A stretch of 64,000 bases of DNA from Natronobacterium haloterrestre (GTDB lineage Archaea > Halobacteriota > Halobacteria > Halobacteriales > Natrialbaceae): positions 62,001 to 126,000 of the forward strand of contig NZ_FOKW01000001.1 in assembly GCF_900112205.1 (NCBI RefSeq). The letters run 5' to 3'. Shown piece by piece: positions 24,793 through 41,751 of the stretch. Position 1 is the first letter of the stretch; each line of letters opens with the position of its first letter. The notes beneath the pieces were generated by a model. The model did no database searches, was not told where the DNA came from, and was given only the letters and a program-made list of their open reading frames with translations. The translations under genes and the position numbers were made by a program.

Positions 24793-25983
24793 TCACTCGA
24801 GGCCGTCGGCGGACCCCGCGATCGAGCGGAGCCGGTCGATCCCGAGCGGCGGTCCGCGAACGAGGAGCGTGTCACCGCCCGAACAGGCGACGTCACCGGC
24901 CGGATCGAACGTCCAGTCGCCGTCAGTCCGGCGGATCGCGAGCACGACGACGCCGGTCTCGAGTTCGCCCTCCAGGTCCCCGACGGTCTGTCCGGCGACG
25001 TCGCCGTCCGGGCCGACGTGGACGGCCCCGATCCCCTCCTCGCTGTCCGACAGCGCCTCGCCGAACACCGGGGGGAGTTCCACGTTTCGTACCACGAGTT
25101 CGGCGATATCGACCGCCGCGTCACAGATCTCCTCGGAGGCCGTCGCCAGTCGGAGCAGCCCCCGGAGTTCGTCGGCGTCCCAGCCCTCGATGTCGACGAC
25201 CCACGCCTCGAGGTCGTTGCGCCACTCGTCGGACCGATCCTCGACGGAGAACACCTCGCGGGCGAGTTCCTCGTCGTCGAACCGGGCCGCGCCGTAGCTC
25301 AGTCCGACCGCGAGTTCGGCCGCGTCCTTGAGTTCCACGACCGTCTCGGCCGCACGCTCGAGGGCGTCGCTCGACTCCGCAGGGGTCACTGGCGACGGGA
25401 AAGCATCGCCAGTCGCGCGCCGGTAGACGGCCTCGATCCCCGCCTGCGGTCCGCGACCGACGATCACGTCGCCGGCCTCGAGGCGGTCGTCTCCCTCCGG
25501 GGAGAACGACCACTCCCCCTCGCGCCTGATCGCGATCAGCCTGACGCCGGTCTCGAGGTCGAGCCGGGACTCCCGGAGGTGGCTCCCGGCGAGGTCGGAT
25601 TCGGGGTCGACGGTCGCCCGCACGAGCCGTTCGTCGGCCTCGGGAAAGGCCTGGTCGAACGCCTCGGGGACGCCGCCGTCCTCGAGAACCAGTCGGGCGA
25701 CGTCGGCCGCGGCCTCGGTGATCCGGACGGCGCTCGAGGCGATCTGGTGGAGGCCGACCAGCCGCTCGGCCTCGTCGGCGCGTTTCGCCGCGAGCATCAG
25801 CGCGATCCGGACGTGATACTGCAGGTAGTCGACGCGCGACTCGAGTTCGAGGACCTCGTCGGCCAACGCGGGGTCGTCGTAGCGCAGAGCGGAGTACGCG
25901 AGGTCGACCGCCAGTTCCGAGGAGTCCTTGAGTTCGACGAGCGTCTCCCGGACGTTCCGGGGCTCGTAGGAGATGTCGCGCAT
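24793..25983 (-). CDS. Double PhoU-like/TrkA_C regulator protein
   Basis: 396 residues with an internal duplication: a PhoU-like helical module (ELKDSSELAVDLAYSALR...) followed by a TrkA_C/RCK_C ligand-binding module (GVRLIAIRREGEWSFSPEGD), then the same pair again (ELKDAAELAVGLSYGAAR and GVVVLAIRRTDGDWTF). There are no membrane helices, so it is a soluble protein. RCK_C domains gate ion channels by binding small ligands or ions. It is divergent from two half-MgtE transporter genes and is their likely cytosolic gate or regulator. A TATA-like CTTGATTAC about 27 bases upstream supports the ATG at 25983. A paralog with the same layout lies at 40543. Confidence 0.88.
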   Translation of the reverse strand: MRDISYEPRNVRETLVELKDSSELAVDLAYSALRYDDPALADEVLELESRVDYLQYHVRIALMLAAKRADEAERLVGLHQIASSAVRITEAAADVARLVLEDGGVPEAFDQAFPEADERLVRATVDPESDLAGSHLRESRLDLETGVRLIAIRREGEWSFSPEGDDRLEAGDVIVGRGPQAGIEAVYRRATGDAFPSPVTPAESSDALERAAETVVELKDAAELAVGLSYGAARFDDEELAREVFSVEDRSDEWRNDLEAWVVDIEGWDADELRGLLRLATASEEICDAAVDIAELVVRNVELPPVFGEALSDSEEGIGAVHVGPDGDVAGQTVGDLEGELETGVVVLAIRRTDGDWTFDPAGDVACSGGDTLLVRGPPLGIDRLRSIAGSADGLE

Positions 25984-26062
25984 TACCGTCTCGTGTCGGC
26001 GACCGGTAATCAAGATTGGGTCGAGCGACCCTTCGGAGCGGGCCCACCGAAACCAACGCTTA

Positions 26063-26077
26063 ATGCGGCGGCCGCAT
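26063..26077. promoter_or_regulatory. 15-bp palindrome between the TATA region and the first MgtE-half gene
   Basis: ATGCGGC-G-GCCGCAT has perfect 7-base arms. It sits 12-27 bases before the start of the half-MgtE gene, next to a CGCTTAATG that can serve as its TATA box, so a bound protein would block transcription. It is absent from the second MgtE pair. Confidence 0.5.
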
Positions 26078-26089
26078 ACGTTTGGACAG

Positions 26090-26662
26090 ATGTTCGGTCA
26101 CGACTCCGCCCTCGACGTCTATCGGCAGGCGCTGCCGGTGATCCTCGTCAGCCTCGTCGCTGGGCTGTTCGCCGGCACGCTGCTCGGCACCGAAACGATG
26201 CGCGAGGGAATCGAGAGCGTTCCCGGAATCCTGCTGTTGCTCCCCGCGTTTCTCGCCACCCGCGGCGGCGTCTACGGCTCGCTCGGCGCGCGCCTCTCGA
26301 GCGGGCTCCACCAGGGGTTGATCGACCCTCGCTTCGAGTGGAACGGCCGGCTCAAGAACGCGATCGTCGCGTCCTTCCTCAACGGGATGATCGTCTCCGT
26401 GTTCATCGCCGTCCTCGCCTGGGGAGTCCTGCTGCTCCTGGGGCGGGAGGCCGGTCTCCTCGAACTGGTGATCGTGCTGGTCGTCGCGGCCCTGTTGAGC
26501 GCGTTCGCGATGCTCGGCGTGTTACTCACCGTGATCTTCAAGGGGTATCGACGCGGGCTCGACCCCGACAACGTCATCGGGCCGGTCGTGACGACCGTCG
26601 GCGACGTCTTCGGCGTCGCCTTCCTGCTCGTCGGCATCGCCACCGCCGGGGTGGTGCTGTGA
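26090..26662 (+). CDS. Half-length MgtE-type cation transporter, first half (copy 1)
   Basis: 190 residues, five predicted membrane helices, no cytosolic N-domain and no CBS domains, so it matches only the transmembrane part of MgtE magnesium channels. The pore motif is RGGVYGSLGARLSSGL, and the C-terminal helix keeps the Asp in DPDNVIGPVVTTVGDVFG that binds metal in MgtE. It overlaps the second half by 4 bases (GTGA), so the two are made as a pair and probably form a heterodimer that equals one MgtE pore. The ATG at 26090 follows a CTTAATG box by ~28 bases. Confidence 0.88.
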   Translation: MFGHDSALDVYRQALPVILVSLVAGLFAGTLLGTETMREGIESVPGILLLLPAFLATRGGVYGSLGARLSSGLHQGLIDPRFEWNGRLKNAIVASFLNGMIVSVFIAVLAWGVLLLLGREAGLLELVIVLVVAALLSAFAMLGVLLTVIFKGYRRGLDPDNVIGPVVTTVGDVFGVAFLLVGIATAGVVL

Positions 26663-27261
26663 GCGCCGGCAGCGACGTCCTGGCCGGCGAGGACCTCGAG
26701 GACGACCTCATCGGCAGCTGGACGGTCCGGAACATCGTCTCGACGCTCGTCCCGCTTTTGATCGCGCTGTCGGTGCTGCAGATGGTCTCGGGGACCGTCC
26801 TCGAGACCTTCGAAGATCAACTGCTCGAGAACCCATCCTTGCTCGTCCTCGTCCCCGTGATGATCGGGACTGCCGGCAACCTGGGGTCGATCATGTGCGC
26901 GCGGCTCTCGACCCAGTTGCACCTGGGCACGCTCGAGTTCTCGCCGGACAACCCCGACATTCGGGCGAACGTCGGCGCCGTCATCGGCCTCGCGGCGACG
27001 GTGTTCGTCCTGCTCGGCGTCGCCTCGTGGGCCATCGGGCGGGCCCTCGGCGGCTCGCTCGGACTCGGGACGCTGCTGGTGATCACGATCGTCAGCGGGT
27101 TGCTGCTGGCCGTCTGGGTGGTCGTCGTCAGCACGGTCTCCGTCTACGCGTCCTACCGGCTGGGGTTCGATCCCGACGATACGACGATCCCGGTCGTCAC
27201 CAACGTCTGTGACATCACGGGCGTGTTGATCCTCTTCAGCGTCGTCTGGGTCGTCATCTGA
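26659..27261 (+). CDS. Half-length MgtE-type cation transporter, second half (copy 1)
   Basis: 200 residues starting at GTG 26659, overlapping the first half. It has a short acidic N-terminus then five membrane helices. The pore block is GTAGNLGSIMCARLSTQLHLG and the last helix keeps the Asp of DPDDTTIPVVTNVCDITG. It differs clearly from the first half, so the two are not copies of each other, and each supplies half a pore. The pair lies next to the double PhoU/TrkA_C gene. Confidence 0.88.
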   Translation: MSAGSDVLAGEDLEDDLIGSWTVRNIVSTLVPLLIALSVLQMVSGTVLETFEDQLLENPSLLVLVPVMIGTAGNLGSIMCARLSTQLHLGTLEFSPDNPDIRANVGAVIGLAATVFVLLGVASWAIGRALGGSLGLGTLLVITIVSGLLLAVWVVVVSTVSVYASYRLGFDPDDTTIPVVTNVCDITGVLILFSVVWVVI

Positions 27262-35302: not shown

Positions 35303-35719
35303 ATGACAGGTGACCATCCGCTCGTTCGACTCGAGACGCTCGCGCTGGTCGCCATCGGCGGGTTCGCCGGTTCGAACCTCCGGTTTTTAGCGACGGACCT
35401 GCTCGCGGACGTGCCGGGGGTCTTGCTTGTCAACGCCGTCGGCAGCGCCGCGCTCGCCTTTCTCGTCTACGAGGCGGAGTACGCTGGTCTGGTCGGCCGA
35501 CGGTCGCGGGTCGTCTTCACGACGGGATTTCTCTCCTCGCTGACGACCTACTCGACGTTCGCGGTCCAGACCGCGCTCGCCGGCGATCCGCTGCTCGTCG
35601 CGGGGGTCGTCGCCGGGAACTACGGGCTCGGATTCGCGGGCGTCGTCGCCGGTCGGTCGCTCGCGCGTCGGGTCGCCGACGGGGCGGGATCGACCGTCGG
35701 AGGGGGTGAGACGGCGTGA
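35303..35719 (+). CDS. crcB: Fluoride channel protein CrcB, first of a pair
   Basis: 138 residues with four predicted membrane helices. The family marks are VNAVGSAALAFLVY and the TGFLSSLTTYSTFAVQ segment, a form of the GxxTTFSTF motif, which together with the GGFAGSNLRF opening identify CrcB/Fluc. These proteins export fluoride as dimers; in many archaea the two subunits are separate genes, as here. It overlaps the second crcB by 4 bases (GTGA). No fluoride riboswitch was recognised upstream. Confidence 0.88.
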   Translation: MTGDHPLVRLETLALVAIGGFAGSNLRFLATDLLADVPGVLLVNAVGSAALAFLVYEAEYAGLVGRRSRVVFTTGFLSSLTTYSTFAVQTALAGDPLLVAGVVAGNYGLGFAGVVAGRSLARRVADGAGSTVGGGETA

Positions 35720-36129
35720 CGCTCGACGTTCTGACGGTGACTTCGACTATCTCGTTCGCGTTCGACCTCCAGCCCGCCCACCTGGTCGGCACGGGCGGCG
35801 CGATCGGCGCCGTCCTCCGCCACTGGATCTACCTGCAGTTCTCGAGCGAGCGGTTCCCCTGGCCGACGCTCGCGGTGAACGCGATCGGCAGTTTCGTCCT
35901 CGGGTTCGTGGTCTTCGCCGGCGTCGGCGAGTCGACGGCCCAGTTGGTGGGGATCGGCATCTGCGGCTCGTTCACGACGTTCTCCTCGTTTTCGGTCGAA
36001 ACCGTGCAACTGTACGAGCGGGGGGATCGGTTGCGGGCGGTCGTCAACGCCGCGGCGAACCTCCTGCTCTCGCTCGCGGCGATCGGTCTCGCGTGGGTGA
36101 TCGTCGCCCGGGGGCCGCTCGCGCTCTGA
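35716..36129 (+). CDS. crcB: Fluoride channel protein CrcB, second of a pair
   Basis: 137 residues starting at GTG 35716 inside the first crcB stop. The canonical motifs are stronger here: GGAIGAVLRHWIY, VNAIGSFVLGFVVF and GICGSFTTFSSFSVETV. The first ~20 residues extend beyond the usual start. With the first protein it is expected to form an asymmetric channel. Confidence 0.88.
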   Translation: MTLDVLTVTSTISFAFDLQPAHLVGTGGAIGAVLRHWIYLQFSSERFPWPTLAVNAIGSFVLGFVVFAGVGESTAQLVGIGICGSFTTFSSFSVETVQLYERGDRLRAVVNAAANLLLSLAAIGLAWVIVARGPLAL

Positions 36130-36301: not shown

Positions 36302-37873
36302 CTAGCGGTCGAACCGTTTCCCCGTCACCGACCGTCGTTGTCGCTTCGTTTCGGCGAACGAGTCGATCTCCGCGGCGATGCGCTCGACGAGGGCCGACTG
36401 TCGCTCGGTCGCCGACTCGATCGCGTTCGTTCGGTCGGAAACGTCGCGGGAGTCCTCGAGTGCGCCGTCGATCATGGTCGCGACCTCTTCGGTGCTCGCC
36501 GCCTGATCGTCCGTCGCGTCGGCGACCTGCTCGGTGCCGTCGTTTGCCTCCTCGATCGTCGTCTCGATCCGGCGCAGTCCGTCGACCGTTTCGGCGACGT
36601 CGTCGACCGCCTCCGCCACCGCCTCGGTCGCCGTCTCGAGCGTGCTGACGGTTTCTTCCGTGTCCGTCTGGATCCGATCGACGAGCGACTCGATGGTCGA
36701 TGCCTCCTCCTGTGACTCCTCGGCCAGGGACTTCACCTCGTTGGCGACGACGGCGAAGCCGTCCCCCTCGGTCCCGGCGTGTGCGGCCTCGATCGAGGCG
36801 TTCAGCGCGAGTAGGTTCGTCTGATCCGCGATCTGATTGATGACGTCGACGATCTCGTCGATCCGTTCGACGCTCTCCCGGAGCTCTTCGACGTCGTCGG
36901 TCGCGTCGTCGGTCACCGACTCGACCCGCTCCATCTCCCGGATCGCCCCCTCGGCCGTTTCCGTGGCCCGGGTGGCGGTCCGTTCGGCCTCTTCGGTCGT
37001 CGCGCTGACTTCCTCCGCCGTGGATGCGATCTCCTCGACGGTCGCCGAGAGGTCGGAAACCTCGGCCGCGGTCTCCTCCATCGCGGCCGTCTGCTCGTCG
37101 GTCACTGACTGAATGTCTTCCGCCTGGGTCGCCACGTTCTCCGTGATCTCCTCGAGTTCCTCGACGGCGTCCGTGACCCGTTCGGCTACCGCTCGCTGCT
37201 CCTCGAGCGATTCGATGCGCTCGCTGTAGGAGTGGAGGTAGGTATCGTTGACCACCTGCATGTCGAGGTTCGTCCCCCGGATCACTGCGGCCGCGTCCGC
37301 GAAGCCGTCGTCGATCGCATCGGCGACCGCGGTCCGGGCGTCTTCGAGTTCGTCTGCGTCGTCGCTCGCCGCCTCGGCCTCCTCGAGCGCGGTCATCGCC
37401 TCGCGTTTCGTCGCCTCCCTGATCTCCGAGAGGAATATCGCGTTGAGGTTCGCGAACATCCCGCCGAAGTAGTGCAGCGGCATCTCGAGCCGATCGTGTA
37501 ATCGGCCGATCCGCGTTCGATGGGTGAAATACCGCCTGTCGTAACTGCCACCCGTAAGCGTCTCGAGGTACCCCGACACGATCTGGCGCAGTTGCCGATC
37601 GTTCCTGGGGGATCGATCGAGCACCTCCCGCGTCCGTCGGTGTTCCGTGATCGGCTCGAGAAAGGCGGTCACGAGGTCTTCCCGTCGGTCGTCGACGACG
37701 TCGTTCAGTGCGGTCAGCCGTCTTTCGTCCTCCGCGTCGAAGTCGATGAACTCCTTTCGCCACTCGATGTTCGACTCCGTCAATCCGATCTCGTCGGCGA
37801 GTTCGTTGGCGTCGTACGCCATCCCGATCGATTCCCCGTCTGCCACTGACTCCCCCGGCGGTGGCGTCTGCAT
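36302..37873 (-). CDS. Soluble chemoreceptor with globin-coupled sensor (HemAT-like)
   Basis: 523 residues and no membrane helices. Residues ~20-200 are a protoglobin-type sensor: TRIGRLHDRLEMPLHYFGGM contains the proximal heme His126 at the position of His123 in Bacillus HemAT. The remainder is a methyl-accepting domain with the conserved hairpin tip (NQIADQTNLLALNASIEAAHAGT, in part, and VVANEVKSLAEES). It should sense oxygen and signal through CheW/CheA to the archaellum. CGCTTATTCC about 25-30 bases before the ATG at 37873 supports that start and argues against the longer upstream frame. No other chemotaxis gene is next to it. Confidence 0.88.
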   Translation of the reverse strand: MQTPPPGESVADGESIGMAYDANELADEIGLTESNIEWRKEFIDFDAEDERRLTALNDVVDDRREDLVTAFLEPITEHRRTREVLDRSPRNDRQLRQIVSGYLETLTGGSYDRRYFTHRTRIGRLHDRLEMPLHYFGGMFANLNAIFLSEIREATKREAMTALEEAEAASDDADELEDARTAVADAIDDGFADAAAVIRGTNLDMQVVNDTYLHSYSERIESLEEQRAVAERVTDAVEELEEITENVATQAEDIQSVTDEQTAAMEETAAEVSDLSATVEEIASTAEEVSATTEEAERTATRATETAEGAIREMERVESVTDDATDDVEELRESVERIDEIVDVINQIADQTNLLALNASIEAAHAGTEGDGFAVVANEVKSLAEESQEEASTIESLVDRIQTDTEETVSTLETATEAVAEAVDDVAETVDGLRRIETTIEEANDGTEQVADATDDQAASTEEVATMIDGALEDSRDVSDRTNAIESATERQSALVERIAAEIDSFAETKRQRRSVTGKRFDR

Positions 37874-38204
37874 AGTAAAGATGTCGAGGAAAGCGGAATA
37901 AGCGTAGTGGCCTCGTGAGAGAAATCTGTCGGGTACGGACGGTCTCACGCCCGGAACCCTCAAATGTGGGGTCGGTCCCGTCGCGGCCGCAACCGCTCGG
38001 CGACGGTGGCGATAACGGCGGCCGCTCCATCGAGATCCGAAACGCCCACGTTCGACACCGGGCGCTCGCTTCTCTTTTCATCGCCCAACGGACCGGTTCG
38101 GCTCGGAGTCCGGTTCCGATTCCGGGAAGTCGCGGCGTCACACACCCCGCGGAAACCCGCCGGATCCCCGATACGTTTAACAGGTAACTGAGTGATGCAC
38201 TGGT
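37874..38204. other. Intergenic region between divergent HemAT and MgtE-half genes
   Basis: 331 bases. At the left end is the HemAT TATA box (about 37896-37904, minus strand). At the right end ATACGTTTAAC near 38170-38180 is the TATA box for the MgtE pair. No gene or strong palindrome is seen in the middle. Confidence 0.45.
38171..38180 (+). promoter_or_regulatory. TATA box of the second MgtE-half pair
   Basis: TACGTTTAAC lies about 28 bases before the ATG at 38205 and fits leaderless expression. The palindrome that precedes the first pair is not found here, so the two pairs may be controlled differently. Confidence 0.5.
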
Positions 38205-38774
38205 ATGAGCGTTCGGGGCGACTTCTGGTCGATCTATCGCGAGGCGCTCCCGATCCTGCTGGTCGCGCTCGGCGGGGGGCTGTTCGCCGGACTCGTGCTC
38301 GAGGACATCCTCGAGAACGTCGAGCGGTTCCCGGGATTGCTCGTGATGGTGCCGGTCTTTCTCGCGACGCGGGGCAACGTCTACGGGGCGCTCGGCGGGC
38401 GCATCTCGAGCGGGCTCCACCAGGGGTTGCTGGACCCGCAGTTCGAACGGAACGACCGGCTCGTCAACGCCGTGCTCGCCTCGCTCGTCAACGGGATCGG
38501 GATCTCGATCGTCATCGGCGTCATCACCTGGGCCGCTCTCCTGGTGCTTGGATGGGAGGTCGCCGCGCTGTCCGAACTGGTCGGGATCATGCTCGTCGCG
38601 GGCACCCTGACCTCGGTCGTCATGATCGTCGGCCTGCTCGGGCTGATCTTCGCCGGGTACAACCGCGGCTACGACCCGGACAACCTCGTCGGACCCATCG
38701 TCACGACGCTCGGTGACATCTTCGGGATGCTGTTCATGCTGTTCTCGATCGGCTTCGTGGAGGTGCTCGCCTGA
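38205..38774 (+). CDS. Half-length MgtE-type cation transporter, first half (copy 2)
   Basis: 189 residues, five predicted helices. It matches the gene at 26090 through its length: VPVFLATRGNVYGALGGRISSGLHQG in pieces, and PDNLVGPIVTTLGDIFG with the metal-site Asp. No N-domain or CBS domains. It abuts the second half (TGATG, shared base), so the pair is cotranslated. It is the second copy of the same two-gene unit in the window. Confidence 0.88.
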   Translation: MSVRGDFWSIYREALPILLVALGGGLFAGLVLEDILENVERFPGLLVMVPVFLATRGNVYGALGGRISSGLHQGLLDPQFERNDRLVNAVLASLVNGIGISIVIGVITWAALLVLGWEVAALSELVGIMLVAGTLTSVVMIVGLLGLIFAGYNRGYDPDNLVGPIVTTLGDIFGMLFMLFSIGFVEVLA

Positions 38775-39404: not shown

Positions 39405-39803
39405 TCAATCGTCCGCCGCCGCTGCCCCCTGCTCGAGGTAGTCGACCATCTCGTCGGTCTCCGATTCGAACTCCTCGAGATCGATCTCGTTGCCGTGCAG
39501 TATCGTCGAGAAGTACCTGGTCGAACTCGCGAGGTTGACCGCCTCCTCGAGTTCGGCCTCGCCGACGTCCGCCAGCCGTGCCTCCTCCTTGTGGAAGTAA
39601 GTGCAGTACGGGCAGCCGATCGCGGCCGCAACGCCGACCCCGATGAGCCCTTTCTCCCGGGCCGAGAGTTCGTTCTCGCCGAACGTGAGATCCCGGAACA
39701 GTCCCCAACTGTGATCGACCGCGGGATCAGCGATCGTCTCCATCCAACTCGGTACCTGTCCGAGCGTTTCCTCGATCTCCTGTCGTGTCTCTTCCGATGC
39801 CAT
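39405..39803 (-). CDS. Carboxymuconolactone-decarboxylase-fold protein (AhpD-like)
   Basis: 132 residues. The AhpD redox motif GCPYCTYFHKEEA has Cys64, Cys67 and His71, so this is an AhpD-type peroxide-defence or disulfide protein rather than the aromatic lactone decarboxylase that gives the fold its name. It is soluble and stands alone, convergent with the MgtE pair. No alkyl hydroperoxide reductase gene is seen nearby. Confidence 0.82.
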   Translation of the reverse strand: MASEETRQEIEETLGQVPSWMETIADPAVDHSWGLFRDLTFGENELSAREKGLIGVGVAAAIGCPYCTYFHKEEARLADVGEAELEEAVNLASSTRYFSTILHGNEIDLEEFESETDEMVDYLEQGAAAADD

Positions 39804-40187
39804 GGTTCAACCCCGCGGGTACGGTACTCGATCCGGCAGTACCTAGCTACCGAGTGACGTTTCGGCAGTCGGTGCCGTCACTGCAGCCCGTGCGGACGAG
39901 TCGAGGGTTGCATTTCATCCCGCGTCCGAAGACGCGGGAATCCCGCCACGGATATCATCTCGGACCCCGAGGGGCGACGGCCACGCTCGACACCCTCCTG
40001 CGGTCTCGCGGCGCTCGAGGATAGCGACGGTCCCGGACCCCGAAGTTGACCTTCCTGCTCTTCGGGACAGACCGCGATCTCGTTGGCCCGTAACAACGTC
40101 TGACCGCCGTCTGCTGGGCGTCTGACGCCGTCTCAGCGACCGATTGTCTGACTGAGATTCAAGTGGCGGCCTGTTGCCGTCGTCGGT
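39804..40187. other. Intergenic region with a hairpin resembling an IS200/IS605-type end
   Basis: 384 bases without a convincing gene. A stable stem-loop CCCGCGTC-CGAA-GACGCGGG lies at 39919-39938. On the minus strand the surrounding reads GGATTCCCGCG...CGCGGGATG, which is the pattern often found at the right end of haloarchaeal IS200/IS605 (TnpB) elements. No transposase part could be recognised on either side. The rest, 39950-40187, shows no gene. Confidence 0.4.
39919..39938. other. Stem-loop, possible solo end of an IS200/IS605-family element
   Basis: Eight-base-pair perfect stem with a CGAA tetraloop. There is no T-run after it on either strand, so it is not a typical archaeal terminator. 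If it is an element end it is a remnant, because no tnpB or tnpA reading frame is next to it. Confidence 0.35.
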
Positions 40188-40274
40188 ATGCCAGTCGACG
40201 CACCAACCCCCGACAGCGACCGACCGTCCCGCACGTTCCCCTCCTCCGACCGGGAGGGGGTGATCGACCGATGA
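40188..40274 (+). CDS. 28-residue small open reading frame coupled to a membrane protein gene
   Basis: Reads MPVDAPTPDSDRPSRTFPSS then DREGVIDR and stop. Its TGA overlaps the ATG of the next gene by 4 bases (ATGA), the same coupling used in other operons here. It is hydrophilic and has no known domain. The coupling favours a real leader or small gene; the lack of a strong promoter box leaves doubt. Confidence 0.4.
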   Translation: MPVDAPTPDSDRPSRTFPSSDREGVIDR

Positions 40275-40501
40275 CGGCGACCACGACGATCGCCGTCTCG
40301 CTCGCGTTGACGCTGCTCGAGGTGGTTCGAGCGTTCCCGCGTCCGAGTTCGGCCCGCGATCGGTTTCGTCTCCGGCCCCGGTTCCAGTACGGCGAGCGGG
40401 CCCGAACGCTCGCGTCGCTCGTCCTCGCGCTGGCGGTCGTGGCCGTCGGCACGGCGGTGTACCTCGAACTCGTCGGCGTGCTGGTGGCGTCGGTCGAGTG
40501 A
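40271..40501 (+). CDS. Small membrane protein, function unknown
   Basis: 76 residues with two hydrophobic stretches: TTTIAVSLALTLLEVV near the start, a basic loop (RPSSARDRFRLRPRFQYGER), and ASLVLALAVVAVGTAVYLEL near the end, so two membrane helices. The start at 40271 gives the first helix directly; the longer in-frame region upstream is Arg/Pro-rich and not typical coding. It converges with the double PhoU/TrkA_C gene, which ends 42 bases away. Confidence 0.6.
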   Translation: MTATTTIAVSLALTLLEVVRAFPRPSSARDRFRLRPRFQYGERARTLASLVLALAVVAVGTAVYLELVGVLVASVE

Positions 40502-40542: not shown

Positions 40543-41751
40543 TCAGGGCACGGACATCTCGTCGAACGCCGCGGCCGCCGTCCGCGTCCCCTTCGAGATC
40601 AGCACGTCGCCGCCGCGGATTTCGGCGTTCGCGTCGCCGACGAGCAACCATCCTTCGTCGGGCCGCCGGACGGCGATCACGGACATCGTCGTCTCCGTGT
40701 CCGGGACGCCGGCGACGATCTCCCTGCCGTCGAGTTCGCTGCCCGGTTCGACCTCGACGCGGGTGATGATCTCGTCGCTCTCCTCGACGGCCAACTGGAC
40801 GACCGGGTGGACGTCGATCTCCCGGAGTACGCCCTCGCTGATGTCGATCGCCGCGTCGCTGATCACCTCGGTGGCGCTGCCCAGGTGGATCAGGCCCCGC
40901 AGGGCAACGGGGTCCGGCGCGTCCTCGGCCGCCCGGAGCGTCCAGGCCTCGAACCGCGACTCCAGGGCGTCGACCTCGACCTCGAGGTTCCGAACCTCCT
41001 CGGCCAGGGCCTCGCTATCGAAGAGGACGGCGCTGTAGGCCAGGTCGACGGCCAGTTCCGAGAGGTTCTTCATGTGGACGATCGTGTCGACCGCCCGCTC
41101 GAGGTCCTCGATGTCGGGGGTATCTGCGGTCGGCGGCTCGTAGCCCGTTCCGGTCATCGTCTCACAGACGTCGCCGATGGCGATCTCGGGACCGCGCAGG
41201 AGTGCGACGTCGTCGCCCCTGATCGTCGTCGTCGGACCGGGGTTGAGCAGCCACTCGTCCCCGCGCCGGAGCGCGATCACTCGGACGCCGGTCTCGGACT
41301 CGAGGTCGATGTCCTGGAGCGTGCGGTCGGCGTACACCGAGTCGGGGTCTACCACTCCGCGGACCAACGTCTCGACGGCCTCCGGGAGGGCCGTCCGCAT
41401 CGCCTCCGGCAGGCCGATGTCCTCGAGGACGACCTTCGCGATGTCGCCGGCAGCGTCGCTGATGTCGTCGGCGGCGGTGACGATCCCCAGGACGGGTGCG
41501 AGCTGTTCGGCGTCTTTCGGCTTGCGGACGGCCATCATCAGGCCCATCCGCGCGCGCATCTCGAGGACGTCCATCCGCTCCTCGAGTCGAAGCACCTCCC
41601 GGGCGATCTCTTCGCTCGAGTGAAGTACCGCGGAGTAGGCGAGGTCGATCAGCAGCTCCGCCGTGTCCTTCATCTCGACGAGCACGTCCTTGACGTTGAC
41701 GGGCTCGTACTCGATCGGTGCCGACGACGTCTCGCCCTCGAGCGGATCCAT
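40543..41751 (-). CDS. Double PhoU-like/TrkA_C regulator protein, second copy
   Basis: 402 residues with the same four-domain order as the gene at 24793: PhoU-like (EMKDTAELLIDLAYSAVL), TrkA_C (GVRVIALRRGDEWLLNPGP), PhoU-like (MKNLSELAVDLAYSAVLF), TrkA_C (TTMSVIAVRRPDEGWLLVGD). No membrane helices. The similarity is moderate, so the duplication is not recent. In this copy the gene faces the serS promoter and lies about 1.2 kb from the second MgtE pair. Confidence 0.88.
   Translation of the reverse strand: MDPLEGETSSAPIEYEPVNVKDVLVEMKDTAELLIDLAYSAVLHSSEEIAREVLRLEERMDVLEMRARMGLMMAVRKPKDAEQLAPVLGIVTAADDISDAAGDIAKVVLEDIGLPEAMRTALPEAVETLVRGVVDPDSVYADRTLQDIDLESETGVRVIALRRGDEWLLNPGPTTTIRGDDVALLRGPEIAIGDVCETMTGTGYEPPTADTPDIEDLERAVDTIVHMKNLSELAVDLAYSAVLFDSEALAEEVRNLEVEVDALESRFEAWTLRAAEDAPDPVALRGLIHLGSATEVISDAAIDISEGVLREIDVHPVVQLAVEESDEIITRVEVEPGSELDGREIVAGVPDTETTMSVIAVRRPDEGWLLVGDANAEIRGGDVLISKGTRTAAAAFDEMSVP

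Follow-up and report, generated by a model that had tools for sequence, protein, structure and literature searches.

A CBS-less pair of MgtE genes and a PhoU-TrkA_C protein as its candidate regulator in trans in haloarchaea and related methanogens

The window analysed here, a stretch of 64,000 nucleotides from the 4.5 Mb draft genome of a haloarchaeon (Natronobacterium haloterrestre), contains two sets of genes, unit 1 and unit 2, that encode MgtE-type membrane proteins together with a soluble protein composed of PhoU and TrkA_C (RCK_C) domains, which is referred to below as the regulator. Unit 1 comprises the following features:

24793-25983, minus strand: unit 1 regulator, 396 aa, ATG start, domain order PhoU-TrkA_C-PhoU-TrkA_C (Pfam)
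25984-26089, no strand: divergent intergenic region, 106 bp between the unit 1 regulator and MgtE-A
26090-26662, plus strand: unit 1 MgtE-A, 190 aa, five-helix MgtE domain
26659-27261, plus strand: unit 1 MgtE-B, 200 aa, GTG start, 4-base overlap with the end of MgtE-A

The first-pass annotation had described two consecutive genes with one five-helix MgtE domain each, and according to Pfam each half indeed carries one PF01769 domain (E 7e-22 in MgtE-A and 3e-22 in MgtE-B) as its sole domain, the MgtE_N and CBS domains being absent from both as had been stated. The metal-site aspartate of the last helix is likewise retained in both halves, the end-of-TM5 motif being DPDNVIGPVVTTVGD in MgtE-A and DPDDTTIPVVTNVCD in MgtE-B, and the TM2 motif reads PAFLATRGG and PVMIGTAGN, respectively. 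The divergent soluble protein reported at a distance of 106 bases was also recovered, with two PhoU and two TrkA_C domains scoring far above the Pfam cut-offs, no RCK_N domain detected by Pfam and no transmembrane segment in its structure model. The description of each gene as half of an MgtE pore holds insofar as bacterial MgtE is itself assembled from two copies of a five-helix subunit. Since this makes a five-helix protein a complete transmembrane domain, nothing has been cut, and two paralogous full domains stand in for two identical ones.

In an alignment of three genomes a conserved CTTAATGCG box was found about 28 bp upstream of the MgtE-A ATG and a conserved TAATCAAGATTGGG upstream of the regulator start; both boxes are putative archaeal promoters. 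The same divergent layout is kept in a sister species (99%) and in one other genus, whose proteins share 74% identity with the unit 1 regulator and 91% and 86.5% with the two halves. Purifying selection acts on unit 1, with dN/dS ratios of 0.32 (NG86) or 0.10 (YN00) for the regulator and of 0.10 and 0.15 (NG86) for the halves. While a regulator is present in all 61 genomes sampled from the window's family, high-identity copies of unit 1 were detected in three of them. The branch leading to the unit 1 regulator measures 1.92 changes per column (median 0.14), and the letter make-up of this protein is odd, both suggestive of an accelerated paralog. Due to this long branch we read unit 1 as a derived, fast-evolving and specialised second copy, and unit 2 as the ordinary version of the family. 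The latter is organised as follows:

38205-38774, plus strand: unit 2 MgtE-A, 189 aa
38774-39364, plus strand: unit 2 MgtE-B, 196 aa, 1-base overlap between its start and the MgtE-A stop
39405-39803: small gene of the CMD family, between the pair and the regulator
40163-40501: small gene without assignment, between the pair and the regulator
40543-41751, minus strand: unit 2 regulator, 402 aa, domain order PhoU-TrkA_C-PhoU-TrkA_C, convergent with the pair

The host genome encodes four PF01769 domains and two full-length regulators, and since all of them are located within 15 kb, in units 1 and 2, their grouping goes well beyond chance. Neither CorA nor a canonical MgtE was found in the genome-wide search.

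All four halves score 74-83 bits against PF01769 (cut-off 27.6 bits) and carry the aspartate at the end of TM5 together with the P(D/A)X4PX6D motif, and they reach 15-30 bits against the canonical MgtE model TIGR00400, far below its cut-off of 232.75. Doubled archaeal MgtE proteins without CBS domains have been published before, and like these and the SLC41 proteins the units described here combine two diverged MgtE domains, PX6GN-like and P(D/A)X4PX6D motifs and the lack of CBS and N domains (PMC9276622, PMC6410215). They differ in that the two domains are not joined in one polypeptide, as in SLC41-like MgtE, but encoded by separate genes, with an overlap of 4 bases in unit 1 and of 1 base in unit 2, and in being accompanied by a PhoU-TrkA_C partner, for which no counterpart is described in the SLC41 literature searched. 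Two layouts of the CBS-less MgtE occur in the surveyed phylum: split pairs, whose proteins measure about 185-215 aa each, and fused proteins of about 380-450 aa that contain both MgtE domains. All 33 fused proteins examined share the final TM5 aspartate in both halves.

A tree of 165 MgtE domains, from whose clades membership in A or B was taken, placed the first-gene (A) halves with the N-terminal halves of the fused proteins (support 100/98) and the canonical CBS-type MgtE apart (100/99). The haloarchaeal B halves grouped with the fused C-terminal halves at weaker support (94/42), and the B halves of the Methanosarcinaceae formed a clade of their own. Judging from these groupings, the split and fused forms most likely share descent from one duplication. 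The CBS-less double MgtE lineage is an old branch of its own, known in animals as SLC41. At one locus (L190, 9077-10374) the gene order seems to be swapped, the first gene falling into the B clade and the second into the A clade.

In the fused form the halves are necessarily paired 1:1. An AlphaFold2 model of one fused protein (pLDDT 89, pTM 0.86) consists of five helices, a linking helix (residues 195-217) and another five helices, and the linking helix would hold both halves in one orientation. The first half of the model matched the Thermus thermophilus MgtE structure 2zy9 (Z 12.6, rmsd 3.4, 176 residues aligned) and the second half the transmembrane domain in 4u9l (Z 15.4, rmsd 3.6, 177 aligned). 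Whole-model Foldseek matches to MATE/MOP transporters were set aside as general helical packing, and MgtE-A by itself gave no match in a phmmer search of the PDB. As the split A and B proteins map onto the N- and C-terminal halves of a natural fused CBS-less double MgtE, the heterodimeric pore proposed in the first-pass annotation is supported, and assembly of A and B into a heterodimer is very likely. The units thus resemble bacterial MgtE (T. thermophilus; 2yvx, 2zy9, 4u9l) in the five-helix transmembrane domain, the TM5 aspartate and the fold (Z 12.6-15.4), but differ from this homodimer, whose chains also contain the N and CBS domains, by a probable heterodimeric architecture without cytosolic gate domains.

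According to its structure model (pLDDT 88.9, pTM 0.89), the regulator resembles PH0236 of Pyrococcus horikoshii over residues 6-194 (1vct, 2bko; Z 20). PH0236 (1vct, 2bkn, 2bko, 2bkp) is a PhoU-TrkA_C chain with whole-length similarity to the regulator repeat (profile E 8e-68, 40% identity), but contains one repeat in 205 aa, whereas the halobacterial regulators combine two repeats per chain. Residues 9-302, which cover both PhoU bundles, overlay the whole PhoU structure 4q25 (Z 21.5, rmsd 2.5, 192 aligned), and the regulator therefore corresponds to a PhoU core with an RCK_C domain following each bundle. With the PhoU proteins of Pst systems (4q25, 1t72) it shares two three-helix bundles in the same packing; it differs from them by the added RCK_C domains, by a sub-equivalog score of 37.6 bits against the phosphate-uptake PhoU model TIGR02135 (cut-off 130.25) and by tracking MgtE. 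The acidic metal motif of PhoU is only partly kept: the positions E48xxxD52, E248xxxD252 and E284xxxD288 are common among the aligned regulators, but most of them contain Asn instead of Asp in the second motif of the first repeat, a site at which unit 1 deviates.

The RCK_C domains of the model matched c-di-AMP-bound KhtT (Z 13.2), BusR (Z 12.7) and the Ca2+-gated MthK (Z 12.8). KtrA, TrkA, KhtT and the MthK gating ring likewise contain an RCK_C domain, within a soluble or cytosolic module by which an ion pathway through the membrane is controlled. The regulator described here, however, consists of TrkA_C and PhoU only, lacking the nucleotide-binding RCK_N (TrkA_N) domain expected of Trk/Ktr regulators, has PhoU bundles joined to its RCK_C domains and is paired with an MgtE-type partner. 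A search of the open literature, with most subscription journals outside its scope, for COG3273 and COG1824 (the presumed COG numbers), PH0236 and the combination of PhoU, TrkA_C and MgtE retrieved nothing linking these.

A survey of 147 genomes across the window's phylum detected both the regulator and the CBS-less pair in 126 genomes, the regulator only in one (G078, 92% complete), the pair only in none and neither in 20 (Fisher 9e-24, a statistic that ignores kinship). The joint absences are spread over several families (f7, f14, f16, f22 and part of f21). Three of the 20 genomes without the system (G009, G012, G026) possess a canonical MgtE alone, the canonical proteins examined carrying CBS and mostly also MgtE_N domains; as the regulator is missing from these three, it tracks the CBS-less pair and not MgtE overall. 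CorA is present in all 20 genomes without the system. One genome of the window's family (G168; L234, L235) encodes the usual complete unit and, at another locus, a second full regulator that has no MgtE pair nearby (about 6 kb considered).

Regulator and MgtE genes are located within 3 kb of each other in 49 of the 126 genomes, representing ten families, and on different contigs of draft genomes in another 47, where linkage is not judgeable. MgtE was found in the flank of 38 of 80 named regulator loci. It lies upstream and codirectional at 25 of these, mostly in Methanosarcinaceae and Methanomicrobia, and is otherwise arranged divergently (5 loci), convergently (5) or downstream and codirectional (3). 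The neighbours recurring at unlinked loci are, as read from the sequence, metabolic, namely citrate synthase and an aspartoacylase-like gene, and no channel gene is shared beside unlinked regulators. This, together with the absence of the pair from only one of 127 regulator genomes, argues against the regulator being usually found without MgtE and beside other channels. On the sole PLSDB plasmid encoding the regulator, from Halobaculum roseum, the genes follow each other in the order regulator-MgtE-MgtE with corA adjoining and form an operon; in RefSeq they are named 'TrkA C-terminal domain-containing protein' and 'magnesium transporter'. As many genomes have the genes at distant positions or on separate contigs, the two components need not be co-transcribed. 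No natural regulator-MgtE fusion was seen, and the trees of the two components do not correspond strictly: in Halonotius terrestris a unit-2-like regulator goes with unit-1-like halves. The co-occurrence, the adjacency in all orientations and the plasmid operon support the proposed tie between the regulator and the CBS-less MgtE, and we consider a functional link between the two likely.

Taken as a whole, we regard it as fairly probable that the units encode an A:B transporter of CBS-less MgtE subunits that is regulated in trans by the PhoU-RCK_C protein. Each unit would encode a divalent-cation transporter of the CBS-less double-domain MgtE/SLC41 type, most likely for Mg2+, in which two translationally coupled five-helix subunits form a parallel A:B heterodimer contributing one TM5 aspartate per half. 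The soluble partner, in which each three-helix bundle of a PhoU-like six-helix core is followed by an RCK_C domain, would sense a cytosolic divalent metal via the acidic PhoU sites and/or a small ligand via RCK_C, and would shift the open probability or the transport rate by contacting the transporter from the cytosolic face. It may thereby fill the role that the N and CBS domains play in bacterial MgtE. That the regulator gates the pore directly appears slightly favoured. It could instead set transcription, stability or trafficking.

Such a role without contact to the channel, in which the regulator is part of the Mg2+ system and governs how the MgtE pair is expressed, stabilised or delivered to the membrane, or else relays the Mg2+ status to other targets, would fit the same co-occurrence as well as the unlinked genes in many lineages. 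PhoU proteins frequently serve as signalling adaptors, and BusR provides an example of RCK_C within a transcription factor. We nevertheless consider it rather unlikely, given that Pfam detects no DNA-binding domain in the regulator and that the RCK_C proteins KtrA, TrkA and KhtT act directly on their own transporters. Service to a potassium system (Trk-like or channel), with MgtE accompanying the regulator through a common archaeal core, might be expected from the RCK_C/TrkA_C domains, from the RefSeq name with the GO term 'potassium ion transport', from the PDB title of PH0236 ('putative potassium channel related protein') and from an ion-channel-like gene about 1.7 kb away at eight loci. It seems highly unlikely, since seven of the eight genomes without TrkH still carry the regulator and 19 of the 20 regulator-less ones possess TrkH, since the pair accompanies the regulator in 126 of 127 genomes and since MgtE is the only transporter neighbour conserved across families; based on the TrkH profile, potassium transport was rejected as the main role of the regulator.

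A third possibility concerns the ligand. The RCK_C domains might bind c-di-AMP and thereby set the Mg2+ flux, as has been proposed for the CBS-bearing MgtE of Bacillus. The resemblance to c-di-AMP-bound KhtT and to BusR is consistent with this, and so is the presence of c-di-AMP in Haloferax (PMC6741144). This nucleotide is frequently bound by proteins with CBS or RCK_C domains, the B. subtilis MgtE included (PMC8844918), which makes a replacement of one domain by another sharing its ligand attractive. In one genus (G067, G097, G107, G122; L105 7972-9141 and 6280-7308) a gene for the cyclase (DAC) lies 0.7-0.8 kb from the regulator, and in four further genomes (G029, G036, G115, G137) the distance is about 5.3 kb. 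This proximity is suggestive of c-di-AMP, but the neighbouring cyclase gene is convergent and not part of an operon. Furthermore, no DAC domain was detected in eight genomes with the regulator, some of them drafts (G016, G022, G052, G077, G078, G093, G095, G146), so that c-di-AMP is not supported as a universal ligand and would not be the general answer unless these absences are gaps. We therefore judge control by c-di-AMP to be quite improbable.

Regulation of the transporter in trans by the PhoU-RCK_C protein thus remains the preferred reading. The regulator would then be a real trans-acting partner of a known transporter type that is apparently undescribed. A broader version, in which the widespread archaeal family of soluble PhoU-RCK_C proteins acts as the trans-acting gate and sensor of CBS-less SLC41-type magnesium transporters, channel and regulator forming pseudo-twofold pairs and representing a third mode of regulation in the MgtE superfamily, has in our estimation an even chance of being correct. 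The literature leaves the regulation of CBS-less MgtE/SLC41 transporters open (PMC9276622, PMC13022745), and the animal SLC41 has been reported to be a Na+/Mg2+ exchanger (PMC9276622). The presence of a separate sensor-like protein in every surveyed genome that has the two-gene Mg-type channel without a built-in sensor, among salt-loving archaea and their methanogen relatives, suggests but does not prove a stand-alone regulator of Mg transport. In a study of haloarchaeal genomes a known Mg2+ transporter was identified in only 52 of 80 genomes and further uptake routes were expected (PMC4230888); in the present survey all 28 genomes of the window's order have the split pair and the regulator. 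Should the regulator act on the pair, this would assign a function to an orphan protein family whose crystal structure dates from 2005, and archaea that are easy to engineer, such as Haloferax or Methanosarcina, could serve to test how SLC41-type transport is controlled.

Two further features were observed between units 1 and 2. An overlapping pair of genes of the CrcB type (fluoride channel) is located near unit 2 at 35303-35719 and 35716-36129 on the plus strand, and a CrcB pair likewise adjoins the regulator-MgtE operon on the Halobaculum roseum plasmid (L236, 4523-5277). The gene at 36302-37963 on the minus strand encodes a globin-coupled transducer, in which a protoglobin is joined to an MCP signalling domain.
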